Source of the DNA: Promethearchaeota archaeon
GTDB taxonomy: Archaea > Asgardarchaeota > Lokiarchaeia > Sigynarchaeales > SOKP01
Length of the DNA: 27,958 nt
Direction of reading: 5' to 3'
NCBI GenBank assembly: GCA_004524515.1
Contig: SDNV01000020.1
Span: 1 to 27,958, forward strand
Below the pieces are notes generated by a model. It did no database searches. It saw nothing but the letters and a program-made list of their open reading frames with translations, and was not told the origin of the DNA. This document shows positions 1-26,091 of the stretch, in pieces. A program made the position numbers and the translations under genes. Within the stretch, counting starts at the first letter, position 1. Each line of letters opens with the position of its first letter.

Positions 1-96
1 CCTAACTTTTTTATCACATTTATAGAGAAGCCCATCTTTTATAGTTACAGAGAAAAAAAAATAAGAGGTTGTGATAACTTATAAACTCAAGAATTT

Positions 97-124
97 AAAA
101 AAAATATCATAAATTTAAAAAAAA
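97..124 (-). terminator. Double oligo-T terminator after hdrA-vhuD
   Basis: Two runs of eight A on the plus strand (97-104 and 117-124) read as two T8 tracts on the reverse strand, about 80-120 nt beyond the vhuD stop. Each sits in the same short context (TTTAAAAAAAAT on the plus strand). Oligo-T tracts without a hairpin are the usual archaeal termination signal. If they are used here, the vhuD mRNA has a 3' UTR long enough to contain the SECIS hairpin. Position 1-96 shows no convincing gene. Confidence 0.45.
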
Positions 125-185
125 TCTTAAAATAAAGAATTAAGAGAATTATATAAAATTTTTAAAATGATAATATAATTTAATT

Positions 186-250
186 CCGATACCCTTGCTA
201 GGTCAGTCTTCTTGGAACTAATTTTTTCTCCCAAGATTCATTCTAATCGG
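186..250 (-). promoter_or_regulatory. Candidate SECIS element (eukaryote-like)
   Basis: Read on the reverse strand, an 8-bp helix (TCTTGGGA, 229-236, with TTCCAAGA, 210-217; one G-U pair) closes an 11-nt A-rich loop, GAAAAAATTAG. Directly below it the 5' side has ATGA plus A (237-241) and the 3' side has A-GA-C (206-209). This gives the tandem G-A/A-G non-Watson-Crick core of a eukaryotic SECIS, with unpaired AA about 10 nt above the ATGA. A lower stem may form as TTAG/CTGA (243-246 with 203-206) or as CCGAT/ATCGG (246-250 with 186-190). The first lower stem includes the vhuD stop codon. Archaeal SECIS elements lie in 3' UTRs, and Lokiarchaeota are reported to have eukaryote-like ones. The fold was drawn by hand. 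Confidence 0.6.
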
Positions 251-716
251 TCTTTAACTTTTCGTTTTTATTAGTTTTTTTACTTTCTTTTTTCGGAATT
301 GTGATTCCTTTAAAAGGATTTTTGCCAAGTTTTTCAATAATATTTGAAATCCTAGTAACTTCTTCTTGAAATCTTTGTCCTTCTGCTGCACTACAGTGAA
401 ACATATGAACTCTTTCAGGTGATATCCCTGAGGTTTTTAAAATTTCTTTTACATAGTTTACATTTCTCTCCGCAACCAGATTACCTGTTTCATAATCACA
501 TTCTCCCGGATATCATCCCGACACTATAACACCATCGGCACCTTTTCCTATAGCTCGCATCATTAGACTTGGAGTGACTCTACCCGTACAATTGATTCTT
601 ATGGGCCTAATAGTCGCAGGGTATTGTGCTCGAATGGTTCCCGCCATATCACCTGCCCCATATCCTCATTTCCAGCATAGAAATGCAATTATTTTTATAT
701 TATGCTGTTCTGCCAT
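243..716 (-). CDS. vhuD: VhuD/MvhD-like selenoprotein with two Sec (TGA) codons
   Basis: This is the delta (iron-sulfur) subunit of F420-non-reducing hydrogenase, which carries electrons through a [2Fe-2S] cluster between hydrogenase or another donor and HdrA. The gene is invisible to ordinary ORF calling because two in-frame TGA codons (666-668 and 513-515) break it. Reading them as Sec gives 157 aa that match the family: C14-W-K-U17-G-Y-G-A-G-D, then R-I-N-C43-T-G-R-V, then G-U68-Y-P-G-E-C73-D-Y. The family has cysteine at 17 and 68. The start ATG (714-716) has a good ribosome site (GAGAGGTGA), and the gene begins 13 nt after the hdrA stop, so the two are co-transcribed. The C-terminal tail is Lys-rich. 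It ends in TAG, which overlaps the lower SECIS stem. Confidence 0.9.
513..515 (-). other. In-frame TGA, Sec68 of VhuD
   Basis: TGA lies in G-(TGA)-Y-P-G-E-C-D-Y. MvhD/VhuD proteins have G-C-x-P-G-x-C here, so the codon replaces a conserved cluster-ligand Cys. The downstream reading continues unbroken for 89 codons. Confidence 0.88.
666..668 (-). other. In-frame TGA, Sec17 of VhuD
   Basis: TGA lies in F-L-C-W-K-(TGA)-G-Y-G-A-G-D. The family motif is C-x-x-C-x-Y-A-G-A-D, so the codon stands for the second Cys of the pair. Confidence 0.88.
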
Positions 717-729
717 ATATTTCACCTCT

Positions 730-2706
730 CTATGTTTCCTCCAAAATCGCATCTATTTGTTTTTCATATTGAGGTTCCCGGTAATATCGTAATGTTATCG
801 CTTCTGAAGGACAATTAGCCAGACAAGTCCCACATCCCCTACATAAAATCTCATCCACTTCAGCACCATCATGCTTCAAGTTAATAGCGTTATAAGGACA
901 ATTTAATTCACATAGTCCGCATTTTGCACATTTTTCCTTGTTGACTTCAGCACGAATTAATAAAATACGGTATTTATCTTTGCTCATCATCCTTGATAGT
1001 GAAGATGCTGCGGCTCTTCCTTGTGAGATCGATTCTGCAATAGATTTAGGCCCTTGAGACACTCCCGCAAGAACGATACCAGGAATTTTGGTATCGATGG
1101 GGTTTAATCTTGAATGAAATTCTTTGAAAAATCCATCTTGACTCGTTTCAAGTTTTAAAATGTTTTGTATTTTTTCAATTCCTTTGGCAGGCACCATTGC
1201 AGCGGATAAGACTACTAAATCAAATTCAAGTTCTCTTAATTTCCCAGTACCAAGCGTATTTTGCATAATAATCTTAAGATTATGAGTCTCAGGGTCTTCT
1301 TTTATCTTAGAAACATTCGTTCTTATATATCTTATTCCTTCTTTCCTAGAAGCGGTATAATATTCTTCATAATCTTTACCAGCGGCCCTTATATCCATAT
1401 AAGCAACTGAAATTTCAGCATCGGGATAATGTTGTTTAATTAATTTTGAGTTTTTAATCGTTATCATACAACACACCCCTGAACTACAATACATATTTTT
1501 ATTGAGATCTCTGGAACCAACGCACTGAATAAATAAAATATTTTTGGGTCGCTTTCCATCAGAAGGTCTAACGAGGTGTCCTATTGTTGGACCATTAGGT
1601 GCTAATATCCTTTCGAGTTTCATTTGAGTTATGACATTTGGATAAACTCCATAACCTAGATAGCCGATTTCTGGCTCGTATTCATCCCAGCCCGTAGCGA
1701 CGATGATTGATCCTACTTTTAGTTCTAAGATTTCATCCTTTTGATCAAAATCCACGGCATGTAATTCACAAACATCCTTACATAAACCACATTTGATGCA
1801 TTTACTCATATCTATTTGAGCCGTGGATGGAACTGCTTGAGCAAAAGCTATATATATTGCTTTTCTTGAATTGAGCCCCTCATTGAACTCATCATATCCA
1901 TAAGCAGGACATACTTCCGTACAAGCCCCGCATCCATTACAATCTTTTGTAATATATCTTGCTTTCTTTCTTATTCTTACATTGAAATTCCCCACAAATC
2001 CAGATACATCTTCAAGCTCACTATACGTATACATATATATTCCCTGAGTTCTTGCGGATTGCAGCATCACAGGCCCTAAAATTCATATTGAACAGTCATC
2101 AGTAGGAAAGGTTCTGTCTAACATAGCCATTTTACCTCCGATAGTAGGATTTTTTTCTACTAAATGTACTTCGAATCCCTGTTCTGCCAGATCAATAGCA
2201 GCAGTAAGCCCTGCCACTCCACCTCCTATGATTAAAGTCTTTTTAGTGATATCTACTTCTTTTATTAGAATTTTTTCTAACACCGCAGCTCTCGCAACCG
2301 CAGACCGAATTGCATCTTCCGCTACCTTTTGAGCTCCAGGTTTATCTTGTCTATGTACGAAGCTCGCATGTTCTCGAATATTTACAAATTCTAAATAAGA
2401 AGGATCTATATTCATGGATTCTAAAACGCTTCTAAAGACAGGCTCATGGGTTTTGGGGGTACAAGAAGCTACAATTAATCTATTTGCATTACTCTCTAAC
2501 ATTTTTTCTTTTATAAATTCAGCACCGGGTTCAGTACACAGACTTATATAATCGGAAGCATCTACTACATTCGGTAAAGTTTTTGTAAATTCTGCTAGGG
2601 CTTTACAATCTATAATTTCGGCTATGTTAATACCTCATTGGCAAATAGCAGCAAAAATTCGGATTTCTTCGTTTTGTGTTCTTATATCGTTTTTCGTTTC
2701 TACCAT
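730..2706 (-). CDS. hdrA: Heterodisulfide reductase subunit A, selenoprotein with two TGA codons
   Basis: HdrA is the FAD-containing, electron-bifurcating subunit of heterodisulfide reductase complexes. With TGA read as Sec, one 658-aa protein results, a normal length for the family. The N-terminal domain has I-C22-Q-U24-G-I-N-I-A, matching the family C-x-C-G-x-N-I. A dinucleotide-binding G-G-G-V-A-G follows at about 161-166, then F-P-T-D-D-C-S-I-U208-I-L-G-P. Two [4Fe-4S] motifs start at C256 and C303, and two more lie in the last 100 residues. The start ATG (2704-2706) fits the start of homology and follows AAGGATG. Without recoding the gene would look like three broken pieces, with breaks at 2635 and 2083. 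vhuD follows 13 nt downstream. No hdrB or hdrC lies in the window, so the partner reductase or acceptor must be elsewhere. Confidence 0.95.
2083..2085 (-). other. In-frame TGA, Sec208 of HdrA
   Basis: TGA lies in D-D-C-S-I-(TGA)-I-L-G-P. HdrA proteins usually have D-C-x-I-C-I-L-x-P, so the codon replaces a conserved Cys. HdrA is an established selenoprotein in Methanococcales. Confidence 0.92.
2635..2637 (-). other. In-frame TGA, Sec24 of HdrA
   Basis: TGA lies in A-A-I-C-Q-(TGA)-G-I-N-I-A, which corresponds to the family motif C-x-C-G-x-N-I-A. Homology to HdrA is continuous on both sides, and no nearer start codon would keep the whole N-terminal domain. Confidence 0.85.
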
Positions 2707-2908
2707 TGCATATCATCCTTATTCTATTTTTTTATATTCCTCCAGGTTTGATTTTATATTTTAATTAAAAATAAACATGTTTTTTGTGATTTACAGATCT
2801 AATTAGGAAAAAATAAATTTAAATCAAAAATCTTGTTTATATGTTTTATAAGTTGAGATATAAAATTTAAAATTAATAATAAGACTTATTAGAATGGAGT
2901 GTTAAATT

Positions 2909-3334
2909 TTGATATTTTTGATTTTTCAAAATGATAACGGTGGAAATGACCCGTTCTCTAATGAATCAATTTTTATTACCCTAGGATTTATGTTTGGTTT
3001 AGCATTGCTGTTGTTAAAAATAGGATTAATCTTGACTAAGGCAGAAGTAAGAACTGGTTTTAAATGGGTCTTAGCGAGCTTCGGTTTCCAAGTAGGAACA
3101 TTCTTTTTTGTAGGAGGTCCTTTAATGCTAATGGGATTTGCAGGAGAGATGGAAGGGGGGCCTCCCGTTGTCTTAATTATTATTTTTATCTTCTTAGCAT
3201 TATTTATAGGGGTTAATGTTTTAAATGTTACCCATCAACTGGGAATGAAACGTGCTCTTATCGTTTTCTTAATTATATTAATTCCTTTTTTGGTTGTAGA
3301 TGCAATTCTTATAATGTTATTAGTCTCAGGATAA
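2909..3334 (+). CDS. Small four-helix membrane protein, unknown function
   Basis: I do not recognise this 141-aa protein. It has about four hydrophobic helices (roughly 20-40, 50-75, 82-106 and 116-139) joined by short polar turns. The second loop has F-F-V-G-G-P and a run of acidic residues and Gly (G-E-M-E-G-G-P-P). The chosen TTG start has GGAGT eight bases upstream. It is divergent from hdrA, with about 200 bp between them that could hold both promoters. A role at the membrane is inference from hydrophobicity only. Confidence 0.7.
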   Translation: MIFLIFQNDNGGNDPFSNESIFITLGFMFGLALLLLKIGLILTKAEVRTGFKWVLASFGFQVGTFFFVGGPLMLMGFAGEMEGGPPVVLIIIFIFLALFIGVNVLNVTHQLGMKRALIVFLIILIPFLVVDAILIMLLVSG

Positions 3335-6512: not shown

Positions 6513-7088
6513 ATGGAAAAGAAAAAAGCAATCGGAATTATTGGTTCACCTCGAAAAAATGGGAATACAGAGTTTTTAACTGATGAACTTTTAAATTTGT
6601 TAAAAGATAGTTTTGAAACTGAAAAGATATTTTTAAAAGATTATGATATAAGTTCATGCGAAGAATGTTATTATTGTATGGATCACGATGAATGCTCTAT
6701 TAAGGACGATATGCAAATTCTATATTCTAAACTTAAGGAATCCCAAGTAATTATTTTATCGAGTCCTATCTTTATGGGCGGAATTACTTCACGTATGAGA
6801 GCTTTTATGGAAAGGACTTGGCATTTAAGAAAAGGACAATTAAAGGATAAAACGGGAAGTTACATTATCGTGGGTCGAAGAAATATTGGAGCTGGAATAA
6901 ACGATATGGAAGAATACTTATCAAGACTTAAAGTGAATAAGATTGCAGGAGTTTTAGGTTTTGGCTTACGTGAAGGGGACGTTTCAAAAGACGAAGAAGC
7001 ATTGAAAGATCTTCAAAAACTAAGTGAGCAAATAATTAGTTTATATCAACAAAAAGAAAAATTAGGTCAAGATATGATAATTTTATGA
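6513..7088 (+). CDS. Iron-sulfur flavoprotein (Isf-type, flavodoxin-like)
   Basis: A 191-aa flavodoxin-fold protein of the NADPH-dependent FMN reductase/Isf group. The FMN phosphate loop is I-I-G-S-P-R-K-N-G-N-T-E (9-20). A compact cysteine cluster, C49-x2-C52-x2-C55-x5-C61, is the [4Fe-4S] motif typical of archaeal Isf. S-S-P-I-F-M-G-G-I-T-S-R-M-R-A-F-M-E-R is the second flavin-binding region. Methanogen Isf proteins are known to reduce O2 and H2O2; that role here is inference. The gene is the second of an operon with the small zinc-ribbon protein. It ends in TGA followed directly by a T7 run, which also shows that TGA serves as a stop in this genome. Confidence 0.88.
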   Translation: MEKKKAIGIIGSPRKNGNTEFLTDELLNLLKDSFETEKIFLKDYDISSCEECYYCMDHDECSIKDDMQILYSKLKESQVIILSSPIFMGGITSRMRAFMERTWHLRKGQLKDKTGSYIIVGRRNIGAGINDMEEYLSRLKVNKIAGVLGFGLREGDVSKDEEALKDLQKLSEQIISLYQQKEKLGQDMIIL

Positions 7089-7236: not shown

Positions 7237-8022
7237 ATGACTGAATCAATCGCATTTACTGGAAAAGGGGGTGTTGGTAAAACTACATGTTTAGTCCTTT
7301 TTCTTAAATTTTTGATTGAGAAAAAAAAGGATTCTAGAATTCTGGTTATAGATGCAGATCCAGATTCGAATATCGCAGATCTTGTGGGATATAACGTTGA
7401 TTTTAATGACACCATTGCGGGTAAAATGCATTCACTTATGTATAAAATTCAAAATGAGAATATCTCCCCTTATGAGACTAATAAGCAAGCCATCGAAGCC
7501 GAAATTTTTAATTGTATTCTCCATGAAAACAAATTTGATTTGGTTGAGATGGGTCGAACAGAGGGGAGCGGTTGTTACTGCTCTATTAATAATGTTTTAA
7601 AAAATACGCTCGATATTATTGCTGAAAATTATAATTATGTTTTGTTTGACAGTCCTGCTGGGTTAGAACATTTTGCCCGCAAAACGGGAAAAGATGTTTC
7701 AGATTTATTAATCATTGTAGATCCTAGCAAGATGGCGATCCATACCCTAAAAAGAATATTGACTATATCAGAAGAATTGAGCTTAGAGTTTAGAAATTAT
7801 TGGGTTTTAGGAAATAGAATTTCTAAAAACCAACAAAAATTATTAATAAAACAAATCAATGCTTTACCAGATAATAAAATAAATTTATTAGGATTTATCC
7901 CGGAAGACAGAGAATTAATGCAATATAATTTATTTAATGAAAATCTACTGAATGTGCCAGCTAACAATGCAGCTTATCGAGAAATGAAAAAACTATCTAA
8001 TAAAATAATTCAAACAAATTGA
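7237..8022 (+). CDS. CooC-like P-loop ATPase (Ni-metallocluster maturation)
   Basis: A 261-aa SIMIBI-class (MinD/NifH-like) ATPase. The deviant Walker A is G9-K-G-G-V-G-K-T-T17 and switch I/Walker B-type segments are V-I-D-A-D-P-D-S-N and L-F-D-S-P-A-G. The C113-Y-C115 pair inside E-G-S-G-C-Y-C-S-I-N is the CXC metal-binding signature of CooC, the ATPase that inserts nickel into carbon monoxide dehydrogenase. No CO dehydrogenase gene lies in the window, so its target is elsewhere or it serves another metalloenzyme. The ATG start begins the domain directly. It has its own promoter region with a palindromic site. Confidence 0.85.
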   Translation: MTESIAFTGKGGVGKTTCLVLFLKFLIEKKKDSRILVIDADPDSNIADLVGYNVDFNDTIAGKMHSLMYKIQNENISPYETNKQAIEAEIFNCILHENKFDLVEMGRTEGSGCYCSINNVLKNTLDIIAENYNYVLFDSPAGLEHFARKTGKDVSDLLIIVDPSKMAIHTLKRILTISEELSLEFRNYWVLGNRISKNQQKLLIKQINALPDNKINLLGFIPEDRELMQYNLFNENLLNVPANNAAYREMKKLSNKIIQTN

Positions 8023-20360: not shown

Positions 20361-21314
20361 TTGGAAAATGAGAATATAAAGAAAGGAATCATTTTTGGGC
20401 TAATGGGAACTGTTATTGGTAGTTTTAACCCGATAATTGCTAATTCTCGTCCAATGGTTATTGATGCCTATTTATTCGCTGCAATGACGGTTATCGTTCA
20501 GGCTCTGATCTTCTTTCCTTTGATGGTAGTTGAAAGAAAAAAATTAAAATCAGATTTTAAGAATGAAATTATTAGTTTAGATAGGATGAATGAATTCCTG
20601 AATGGTTATAAGAAAAATATTCCGCTCTTGATTTTTGCAGGATTAAGCTTTGGCGTTTGTTTTATTCTTTTCTATATTGGTTATGAGCTCGCAGGAGCTA
20701 TAAATGGAAATTTAGTTTTAAAGACTACCATTTTTTTTTCTCTCCTCTTTGATTGGCTTATCTTGCGAGAGAAAATCTCGTTAAGACAAGTAATATTTTC
20801 AATTATTTTATTTTTCGGATTATTCTTAGCAGTTACAGAAGGTTCATTTACATTACTTGAATTAAACATCGGAATCATAGTATTATTGTCTGTATCCGGG
20901 ATATGGATGTTTACTCATGCAATTTCAAAACCGATGTTAGATAGAAAAGAAATTACGTCAATTCAATTGGTATGTATTAGAAATTTTATTTCGAGTATTT
21001 TTTTAATATCAACTTATTTTATTTTTTTTCCCTTAAAGAATATAGATTTATTGTTAAATCCATCCACAATGTTTTGGGGTATTTTAATGGGATTTATTTA
21101 CGGGATAGGACTGTATATGTGGTATAAAACGCTTGAGAATCTTAATGTGAGTAAAGCAACAATATTGGTTTCAGGGAATCTAATATTTACAGCAATCTTT
21201 GCCACGTTATTTCTAAGAGAAATTTTTACGATATTTCATTTAATTGGCACAATCTTTGTAATCATATCGATCTTTCTAATAGTCAATCCAATGAAAAAAG
21301 AAGAATTAAAATAG
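20361..21314 (+). CDS. EamA/DMT-family transporter, tandem copy 1
   Basis: A 317-aa membrane protein with ten predicted helices in two repeats of five, the drug/metabolite transporter layout. Signature stretches are A-G-A-I-N-G-N-L-V-L-K at about 110, F-L-I-L-R-E-K-I-S-type ends of helix 4, and a second half with W-Y-K-T-L-E-N-L-N-V-S-K-A. The start is TTG in the context ATATC-TTG-GAAAAT. No Shine-Dalgarno sequence is present, only a T-rich stretch, and this context recurs before copies 2 and 3. The N-terminus M-E-N-E-N-I-K-K-G-I-I-F-G matches copy 2, which supports the start. The substrate is unknown; proximity to the sulfatase hints at a shared substrate path. Confidence 0.87.
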   Translation: MENENIKKGIIFGLMGTVIGSFNPIIANSRPMVIDAYLFAAMTVIVQALIFFPLMVVERKKLKSDFKNEIISLDRMNEFLNGYKKNIPLLIFAGLSFGVCFILFYIGYELAGAINGNLVLKTTIFFSLLFDWLILREKISLRQVIFSIILFFGLFLAVTEGSFTLLELNIGIIVLLSVSGIWMFTHAISKPMLDRKEITSIQLVCIRNFISSIFLISTYFIFFPLKNIDLLLNPSTMFWGILMGFIYGIGLYMWYKTLENLNVSKATILVSGNLIFTAIFATLFLREIFTIFHLIGTIFVIISIFLIVNPMKKEELK

Positions 21315-21346
21315 TTTATATTTCTAATCACTTTTTCTTTAATATC

Positions 21347-22303
21347 GTGGAAAATGAAAATTTAAAGAGAGGTATTATTTTCGGTATATTAGGCACTTTC
21401 TTAATAGGACTTCAACCAATTGTAGCCAATTCGAGACCGATGGTTATTGATGCGTTCATTTTTGCTGCGATGACGATGATAGTAGAAGCTAGTATTTTTT
21501 TTCCACTTATGCTAATTGAAAGAAAGAATATCAGGACTGATTTTAAGAATAATTTATTTAATGAGGTAGAATTTAACTCGCTTCTTTATGGATTTAAAAG
21601 AAATAAACTCCTTTTAATTTTTGTGGGCACGGCCTTCGGAATCGGAATGGTATTATTCTTTATTGGCTATGGCCTTGCGGGAGCAATAAATGGATCGTTA
21701 GCTCAAAAGTCAGCTTTGTTTTTTTCTTTGATATTTGGTTTTCTAATATTGCATGAAAAAATATCCAAAAAACAGATTTTTTTTTCAGTTCTTTTATTTT
21801 TTGGTTTAATCTTAGCTGTGACTCAAGGGAGTTTTAATGTATTAGAATTTAATACGGGAGTATTGATTTTACTTTTATTAGCTTGTATTTGGATGTTTAC
21901 CCATACAATATCAAAACCGATGTTAGATAGAAAGGAAGCTACAGCAATCCAGATGGTATGCTTACGTAACGGTATTGGAGGATTAATGCTAATTACCACA
22001 TATCTTCTTTTTTTTCCTGTAGAAAATTTAGTTATCTTTTCTGATCCGATAAACTATTTCTGGTTTTTTATAATGGGATTAGTTTATGGAACCGGATTAT
22101 TTTGTTGGTATAAAACCCTTAGCTATTTAGATGTAAATAAAGCATCAATTTTAGTATCTCCTACTCCTATCATCACCGCTATATTTGCCACCTTACTTCT
22201 TGGAGAAGTATTTACCATATACCATTTAATAGGGACTAGTATTATTATTTTTTCCATTCTTATGATTGTGAGGGAAGCAAATAAAAAAATCAAAATAGTT
22301 TAA
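21347..22303 (+). CDS. EamA/DMT-family transporter, tandem copy 2
   Basis: A 318-aa ten-helix transporter, clearly paralogous to copy 1: shared R-P-M-V-I-D-A near residue 30, W-M-F-T-H-x-I-S-K-P-M-L-D-R-K-E in the middle, and F-T-I-Y-H-L-I-G-T at the end. The start is GTG in AATATC-GTG-GAAAAT, again without a ribosome site but after a T-rich leader like those of its neighbours. The gap from copy 1 is only 32 bp. It most resembles copy 1 by eye, so this pair is probably the younger duplication. Confidence 0.87.
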   Translation: MENENLKRGIIFGILGTFLIGLQPIVANSRPMVIDAFIFAAMTMIVEASIFFPLMLIERKNIRTDFKNNLFNEVEFNSLLYGFKRNKLLLIFVGTAFGIGMVLFFIGYGLAGAINGSLAQKSALFFSLIFGFLILHEKISKKQIFFSVLLFFGLILAVTQGSFNVLEFNTGVLILLLLACIWMFTHTISKPMLDRKEATAIQMVCLRNGIGGLMLITTYLLFFPVENLVIFSDPINYFWFFIMGLVYGTGLFCWYKTLSYLDVNKASILVSPTPIITAIFATLLLGEVFTIYHLIGTSIIIFSILMIVREANKKIKIV

Positions 22304-22330
22304 ATTTCAATTCGTTTTTTTTTTAATATC

Positions 22331-23281
22331 TTGGAAGATAAAAATTATGGTAAAGGAATTATTTTTGCTCTTATTTCACTTTTTCTGGTCTCTTTACAAC
22401 CTATTGTAGCGATTTCAAGACCACGGGTTTTAGACGCATATATATTTGCTGCTATGACTTGCATTGTTGAAAGCATAATCTTTTTACCCTTGATTTTAAT
22501 AGAAAGACAAAAACTTAAGTCTGAAATAGAAAAGGAGCCCTCTAAATCCGATGAACTTCATACATTACTAAATGGATGGAAAAAAAATAAAAAAATTTTA
22601 CTTTATATCGGAATAAATTTTGCAATTGCTCAGATTTTATTTTATGTAGCATATGAATTGGCGGGAGCAATAAATGGTTCCTTAGCTCAACAAACTATGG
22701 TAATTTTTGCCCTTTTATTTGGATTTTTAATTCATCACGAGAAGATCTCAAAAACTCAAATATTATTTTCATTTCTTTTGCTTTTTGGACTTACTCTTGC
22801 GGTCACTCAAGGTAATTTCAATGTTCTAGAAATTAATCTTGGAGTTTTAGTTATGTTTATAACCACTATGTTATGGATGTTGGCACACTCTATTACTAAA
22901 CCAATATTAGAAAAAGAAATCACTCCAATCCAATTTTCATTTATTAGATATACAATCTCTGGAATATTTCTGATATGTACATATTTCATATTCTATCCAA
23001 TAACAAATATTAGTCTTCTATTTGAACCGATTAATATACTATTTTTCCTCCTGATAGGATTTTTATATGGATTTGATGTATTATTCTGGTACAAAAGTTT
23101 GTCACATATAGAAATGAGTAAGGTAAGTGTTCTCGTTTCTCCTATGCCAATTTTAGTTGCATTTTTCGCATTTATTATTTTAGGAGAATCTTTTACCATC
23201 TTTCATTTACTAGGAACTATTGTTATTATATTTTCTATTATAATGATTGTGAAAAAAAGACCCGCAAAAATCATTCCTTAA
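22331..23281 (+). CDS. EamA/DMT-family transporter, tandem copy 3
   Basis: A 316-aa ten-helix transporter. It shares A-G-A-I-N-G-S-L-A-Q with copy 2 and the F-T-I-F-H-L-L-G-T end, but differs in the middle (W-M-L-A-H-S-I-T-K-P-I-L-E-K-E instead of the M-L-D-R-K-E form), so it is the most divergent of the three. Start TTG in AATATC-TTG-GAAGAT, 27 bp after copy 2. Its stop abuts the stop of the convergent DUF454 gene with no base between. Confidence 0.87.
   Translation: MEDKNYGKGIIFALISLFLVSLQPIVAISRPRVLDAYIFAAMTCIVESIIFLPLILIERQKLKSEIEKEPSKSDELHTLLNGWKKNKKILLYIGINFAIAQILFYVAYELAGAINGSLAQQTMVIFALLFGFLIHHEKISKTQILFSFLLLFGLTLAVTQGNFNVLEINLGVLVMFITTMLWMLAHSITKPILEKEITPIQFSFIRYTISGIFLICTYFIFYPITNISLLFEPINILFFLLIGFLYGFDVLFWYKSLSHIEMSKVSVLVSPMPILVAFFAFIILGESFTIFHLLGTIVIIFSIIMIVKKRPAKIIP

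Positions 23282-23817: not shown

Positions 23818-26091
<2,274 letters not shown>

Follow-up and report, generated by a model that had tools for sequence, protein, structure and literature searches.

How are four in-frame UGA codons in two neighbouring genes read through, and which signal in the RNA directs this? The window analysed here, a stretch of 27,958 nucleotides, carries on its minus strand a two-gene operon of Lokiarchaeal type, hdrA (730..2706) and then vhuD (243..716), with 13 nt between the genes and a SECIS at the 3′ end. Both frames are open only with UGA readthrough, and each holds two such codons, at 2637-2635 and 2085-2083 in hdrA and at 668-666 and 515-513 in vhuD, all putatively selenocysteine. 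Pfam places iron-sulphur and FAD-type domains in hdrA and assigns vhuD to the FlpD family (PF02662, E 9.7e-44). A scan of genome contigs returned 34 relatives, all Lokiarchaeal, of which 33 reach the end of vhuD; L034 ends before it and was dropped. Both vhuD UGAs are retained in all 33. Those of hdrA are retained in 27/29 and 30/30 of the loci covering each, counting the window, with L017, L023 and L024 cut short and L020 showing no hdrA frame next to vhuD. Retention in both genes thus links a presumably functional SECIS to in-frame UGAs under selection.

The element occupies 186..250 on the minus strand, exactly the span from one strand of its lower helix, P1, to the other, and this is where the preliminary description had placed it. 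A search with R1, a model built on 34 such elements, matches at 184-252, and the boundaries agree with alignment A1 of the same 34 sequences and its pair counts. The 5′ strand of P1, CCGAU (246..250), is made up of the final nucleotides that code for VhuD and pairs with 190-186, where A1 places the 3′ strand AUCGG (186..190). The TAG stop codon of vhuD (243..245) follows directly, on the 5′ side of an internal loop, in keeping with the earlier observation that it lies in or next to the lower stem. Next comes the 5′ strand of the core, AUGA (238..241), opposite GA at 208-207; these two bases belong to the 3′ strand GAC (206..208), the tandem G-A partner, which is invariant in A1. The upper helix P2 has 8 bp, formed by UCUUGGGA (229..236) with 217-210 and, on the other side, UUCCAAGA (210..217) with 236-229. 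It is capped by an apical loop of 11 nt, GAAAAAAUUAG (218..228), whose A run begins 11 nt above the core. The core, the 8-bp helix and the A-rich loop are all as first described. A third helix, P3 (191..203), pairs ACCU (203-200) with GGGU (194-191) around a loop AGCAA with a conserved GC.

Folded alone, positions 160-280 of the window give a weak and ambiguous structure (z -1.49, with 15/200 shuffles equally good). Folding energy is therefore no proof, and the case rests on comparison. Rfam returned no SECIS family among its 4 matches to window positions 1-3000 at E up to 10. R1, and likewise R2, a model of the core and P2 only, hits a single place in the 28 kb of the window when matches with E as high as 10 are listed.

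For the comparison we used A1, a MAFFT alignment of the 33 complete relatives and the window (32 distinct rows) that is not fitted to P2 or P3. The element is kept in 34/34 sequences. In total 97.7% of cells are paired, compared with 86.9% after shuffling and 35-46% when partners are slid, and the covariation score is 0.362 against 0.142 (sd 0.012) for shuffled alignments. Double changes occur in 9/17 pairs, seven of them in P2 and two in P3. P2 itself is paired in 99.2% of cells, and the compensatory changes that had been named as a check on the upper helix are present in seven of its eight pairs. The same check called for an invariant ATGA/GA core; here the UGA and the GA hold in every row, whilst the first base is A in 33/34 and G in L025, which reads GUGA. 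The AAA of the apical loop is likewise invariant, as it is in 97/97 analysed R2 matches. P1 is CCGA/UCGG in all 34 rows; the extraction pattern demanded CCGA and TCGG, which accounts for part of this invariance, and 0/33 loci were lost thereby. In other genes P1 varies with compensation, as seen in alignments A2 and A4, which are fitted to R1 and lean towards structure by construction. Among the vhuD loci, CCGA is read in two frames or is untranslated (ACC GAG in L001, AAA CCG in L002, untranslated in L005), so its conservation reflects constraint on the RNA. R1 finds one strong match per source in 34/35 sources, the exception being the truncated L034. By these comparisons of sequence the element is, with near certainty, a SECIS, and the pattern of substitutions shows that pairing in the RNA is strongly constrained, in the form of a three-way junction.

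The third arm of that junction is a short CC..GC..GG hairpin, P3, lying 3′ of the core and before the 3′ strand of P1. We scored a junction where a constrained fold, with P2 and the core fixed, gave at least four pairs in P1 and at least three in P3, and took expectations from dinucleotide-shuffled flanks. It formed in 30/34 vhuD orthologs (8.7 expected) and in 19/20 of a thinned set (5.2 expected). A further 40 divergent Asgard vhuD loci were chosen by hand among the protein-similarity matches listed, and our script found no core in 9. The 31 with a recognised core formed 26 junctions (8.0 expected), and 18/22 did so after thinning (5.7 expected). Amongst the other 9, P3 could be seen by eye in L133, L136, L142, L143, L144 and L149 and is absent in L150, L152 and L153. 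The last three and L157 show by eye a short C/G hairpin only and no P3, though by the script L157 passed for a junction (z +0.58). When the 32 nt behind the core were tested for any free hairpin, p<=0.05 was reached in 15/34 and 5/36; this test is weak because short hairpins are common.

Moreover, R2 is blind to P3, and its matches extend the comparison to other genes. At E up to 0.1 it gave 98 matches in 16 genomes, of which 97 were analysed (G006:C181 was left out); the genomes were hand-chosen among R1-positive ones and hold mutual orthologs, and the matches are therefore not independent. A junction forms in 79/97 (24.6 expected). The 54 matches not labelled vhuD account for 44 junctions (12.8 expected), and 49 of them carry CC..GC..GG. 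This motif, whose pattern was written after the sequences had been seen, starts at most 7 nt from the core in 82/97 matches, whereas 500 letter shuffles averaged 2.1 and never exceeded 7. GC is present in 75/89 P3 loops against 28.6 expected from within-loop shuffles; the loops of L008, L022, L026 and L032 lack it. In several of the 15 exceptions to CC..GC..GG the stem survives substitutions on both of its strands, as ACUC/GAGU in five vhuD-labelled matches, AAGGGA/UCCCUU in L075 and UAGGA/UCCUA in L083. The vhuD relatives L162-L166 have AUGG/CCAU in its place. The full junction is rarer in small membrane genes (5/11) and Prx-like genes (3/6), with P1 or P3 weak in some, and in A1 the outermost P3 pair is broken in 7/32 distinct rows. 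Taken together, these counts strongly support the existence of P3. A eukaryote-type SECIS, as the preliminary description had it, is thus borne out in core, P2 and A-rich loop, and P3, which had been missed, sets the element apart from the plain two-helix form. We considered whether P3 might be the GAA_A hairpin of methanogens; this was rejected on inspection, as no conserved GAA precedes P3.

Could the element nevertheless be simply a eukaryote-like SECIS with two helices (type I, Huang et al.), and P3 an incidental spacer? The key region of the Asgard element, in the published text, consists of core, upper stem and apical loop (PMC11227280), and P3 of the window is weak alone, having 4 pairs, one of them G-U, and a z of -0.85 in the constrained fold. 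We regard this as improbable: genes of unrelated families retain the position, stem and loop GC of P3 far more often than shuffling predicts, and in several of them both strands of the stem have changed. Less probable again is that the hairpin serves to terminate transcription or to stabilise the mRNA end, and not as a recoding signal. It does sit at a gene end with A+T-rich sequence after it, but a terminator would not need an invariant UGA/GAC core and an AAA loop. Moreover, most examined matches follow genes with an in-frame UGA, no gene at all having been identified for some, e.g. L247, L269 and L272. As for UGA being simply reassigned genome-wide with no signal needed, four in-frame UGAs in two neighbouring genes would be in line with it; however, window ORFs 6513-7088 and 7237-8022 terminate at TGA, so that recoding is local, and UGA is the vhuD stop in 11/34 loci. 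The likelihood that we give to reassignment is close to nil. Our preferred reading is that of a working SECIS, folded as a three-way junction, which very probably recodes the UGAs of vhuD and most likely those of hdrA as selenocysteine.

The position of the hdrA codons raises a further alternative. Distances from the core are 274 and 427 nt for the UGAs of vhuD and 1844 and 2396 nt for those of hdrA, and a single element probably serves all four, the farthest of them 2.4 kb upstream. According to a review, UGA and SECIS have been observed 70-1500 nt apart in Archaea (PMC9499178, as far as its text goes); both hdrA codons lie outside this range and over a cistron boundary, which would favour a separate, unseen SECIS for hdrA, or none, with hdrA truncated. 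We consider this unlikely. Across 35 sources R1 gave, beyond the main matches, just three weak ones with E from 0.26 to 7.3; R2, as searched in the window, has no second match there, and the two genes leave a gap of only 13 nt. The wide retention of the hdrA codons also counts against this alternative. Huang et al. 2024 likewise infer, in the text of PMC11227280, that hdrA and frhD(vhuD) share one element. In L015 we observed four in-frame UGAs inside hdrA and six across the operon, with one SECIS found.

Overlap with the vhuD stop codon is real, although the stop has no fixed position. In all 34 loci it is found close to the lower helix, between -6 and +10 nt, but it drifts. Measured from the first base of CCGA, the stop begins at -6 to -3 in 11/34, at +4/+5 in 13/34 (the window at +5) and at +9/+10 in 10/34. 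In the last group the stop is the core's own UGA. With the stop so placed, within or next to P1 and the core, any ribosome arriving there would have melted both, as follows from the geometry. Such melting would let a UGA inside the SECIS serve as a stop, and the final stop codon would terminate translation instead of being recoded.

In the structure supported by the comparison, P1 closes the junction, P2 bears the tandem G-A core and the A-rich loop, and P3 stands 3′ of the core as a short hairpin with a GC-containing loop. We suggest that the SECIS works as follows. Kink-turn and k-junction RNAs have tandem G-A pairs at the base of a helix; the same is seen here, inside a three-way junction, as a likeness of sequence motif. 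The core may fold as a kink-turn-like motif and be recognised by an L7Ae/L30e-type protein or, since published texts report no SBP2 homologue in Archaea, by another factor. The element would then help to deliver Sec-tRNA via aSelB to ribosomes paused at the upstream UGAs, with P3 and its GC loop acting as a second contact or as an arm that sets the fold. The stem and GC loop of P3 present a defined target for binding and mutational tests.

How does this element relate to known ones? That hdrA and vhuD of Asgard archaea have a eukaryote-like SECIS in common, and that it often overlaps a stop codon, has been published (text of PMC11227280). The Asgard eSECIS-like type I described there has a core 5′-GA_[G/A]A-3′, mostly AUGA_GA, an upper stem of 7-15 bp with at most 2 mismatches, and a loop of 8-20 nt without a ministem whose first nucleotides are mostly A. 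The core, upper stem and apical loop of the window element all agree with this. The two are further alike in the genes concerned, in sharing between hdrA and vhuD and in the stop overlap in Lokiarchaeia, and differ in the third helix, present here and absent from the published text (PMC11227280, figures and supplement apart). In that text neither a hairpin nor a third stem is mentioned, and "junction" stands only in a reference. The texts of PMC11227280, PMC13188914 and PMC9499178 describe one upper stem and one apical loop, and the portions consulted of PMC11881835, PMC9723677, PMC8211752, PMC9622424 and PMC9312934 hold nothing on a third helix. Our literature search, which covered texts and not figures or supplements, where a drawing may exist, found no Asgard or archaeal SECIS with a three-way junction.

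Eukaryotic type I elements resemble the present one in the AUGA/GA tandem G-A core, the upper helix, the unpaired loop A's and the position at the gene end. In contrast, the window element starts inside the coding sequence and has a third helix, whereas eukaryotic SECIS elements are described as two helices and an internal loop in the texts of PMC11227280 and PMC13188914. Methanogen elements share the usual 3′ location, and with them, too, a gene with two UGAs may depend on a single element (text of PMC9499178); the GAA_A internal loop and G-C clamps of the methanogen eaSECIS, sought by inspection against its description, are absent from 250..186 and from A1. A lokiarchaeal SECIS is reported not to function in Methanococcus maripaludis (text of PMC11881835). 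This negative result, the sole functional test in the texts consulted, counts against our reading, yet it would also fit if the element required factors specific to Asgard archaea. For Asgard genes SECISearch3 is reported to have yielded nothing significant (text of PMC11227280), which a conserved third arm may explain; the explanation is our own.

The idea of a transition state between the archaeal and the eukaryotic Sec system is already published and is not new, and the eukaryote-like SECIS itself was known. What appears to be new here, judged by the texts consulted, is the conserved third arm, P3, which eukaryotic signals are not described as having. Asgard elements are a basis for arguments about the origin of the eukaryotic selenocysteine signal; given the third arm, they are not simply eukaryotic SECIS elements. 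We tentatively put forward a broader proposal, which may hold although we lean slightly away from it as a whole: the Asgard SECIS would form a class of its own, in which a three-way RNA resembling a k-junction offers two arms for recognition, a eukaryote-like P2 (G-A core, A loop) and an archaeal P3 (GC loop), of which eukaryotes kept P2 and lost P3; it would serve whole polycistronic mRNAs over >2 kb and mark unrecognised small selenoproteins.

Lastly, we looked at the spread of the element. With strict filters and E up to 0.01, R1 matches 54/195 genomes of the phylum, and in ten genomes it gave 68 places at E up to 1, some of them weak. The genes beside those R1 and R2 places that were examined, named by motif and by eye, include vhuD paralogs, hdrA, vhuU, Prx-like and selD-like genes and small proteins, with some left unnamed. 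By loose motif patterns, 80/97 R2 matches carry a selenoprotein-type gene label and 17 carry none. Used as a search model, the element finds candidate selenoproteins that gene callers cut at UGA. The text of PMC11227280 lists seven Asgard selenoprotein families, and R1 also led to candidates that are not among these.

The clearest such candidate is a small membrane protein of about 50-90 aa, with one membrane helix and a C-terminal Sec preceded by two glycines (GG-Sec), seen at L176, L177, L178, L183, L185, L190, L192, L195, L200-L202, L204, L212 and others. From 28 hand-picked loci, the 25 non-redundant members have a Cys at +2 in 15 cases and within +1..+4 in 21. One member retrieved 18 database proteins, 14 of them 47 aa long; of the 8 that were opened, 6 have as their last residues the glycines that precede the UGA, and 2 continue with Trp in its place. 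In a count aimed at coding beyond the UGA, differences at codon positions 1/2/3, duplicate rows included, number 178/106/267 upstream of the UGA and 77/128/97 downstream.

Other ORFs ahead of such elements were also noted. L052, L077, L080, L084, L275 and L277 are short ORFs with two CxxC pairs, a UGA as the last codon before TAA and a SECIS behind; the terminal UGA is possibly a C-terminal Sec, or merely half of a double stop. L075 and L083 hold UGA clusters (ADUUADN and SAUGUUAK) ahead of a SECIS, and the L083 ORF, with Cys letters in place, had no Pfam match. Each of the two copies at L182 is a multi-pass membrane ORF that contains a single UGA and has a SECIS, one of them with weak similarity to DUF2269 (E 1.4e-4, under the Pfam cut-off). 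Elsewhere in the window, positions 20361-23281 hold three tandem, similar ORFs that look membrane transporter-like by eye, and 23827-26091 is a large ORF, catalase-peroxidase-like by eye, which is unexpected in what we presume to be an anaerobe.
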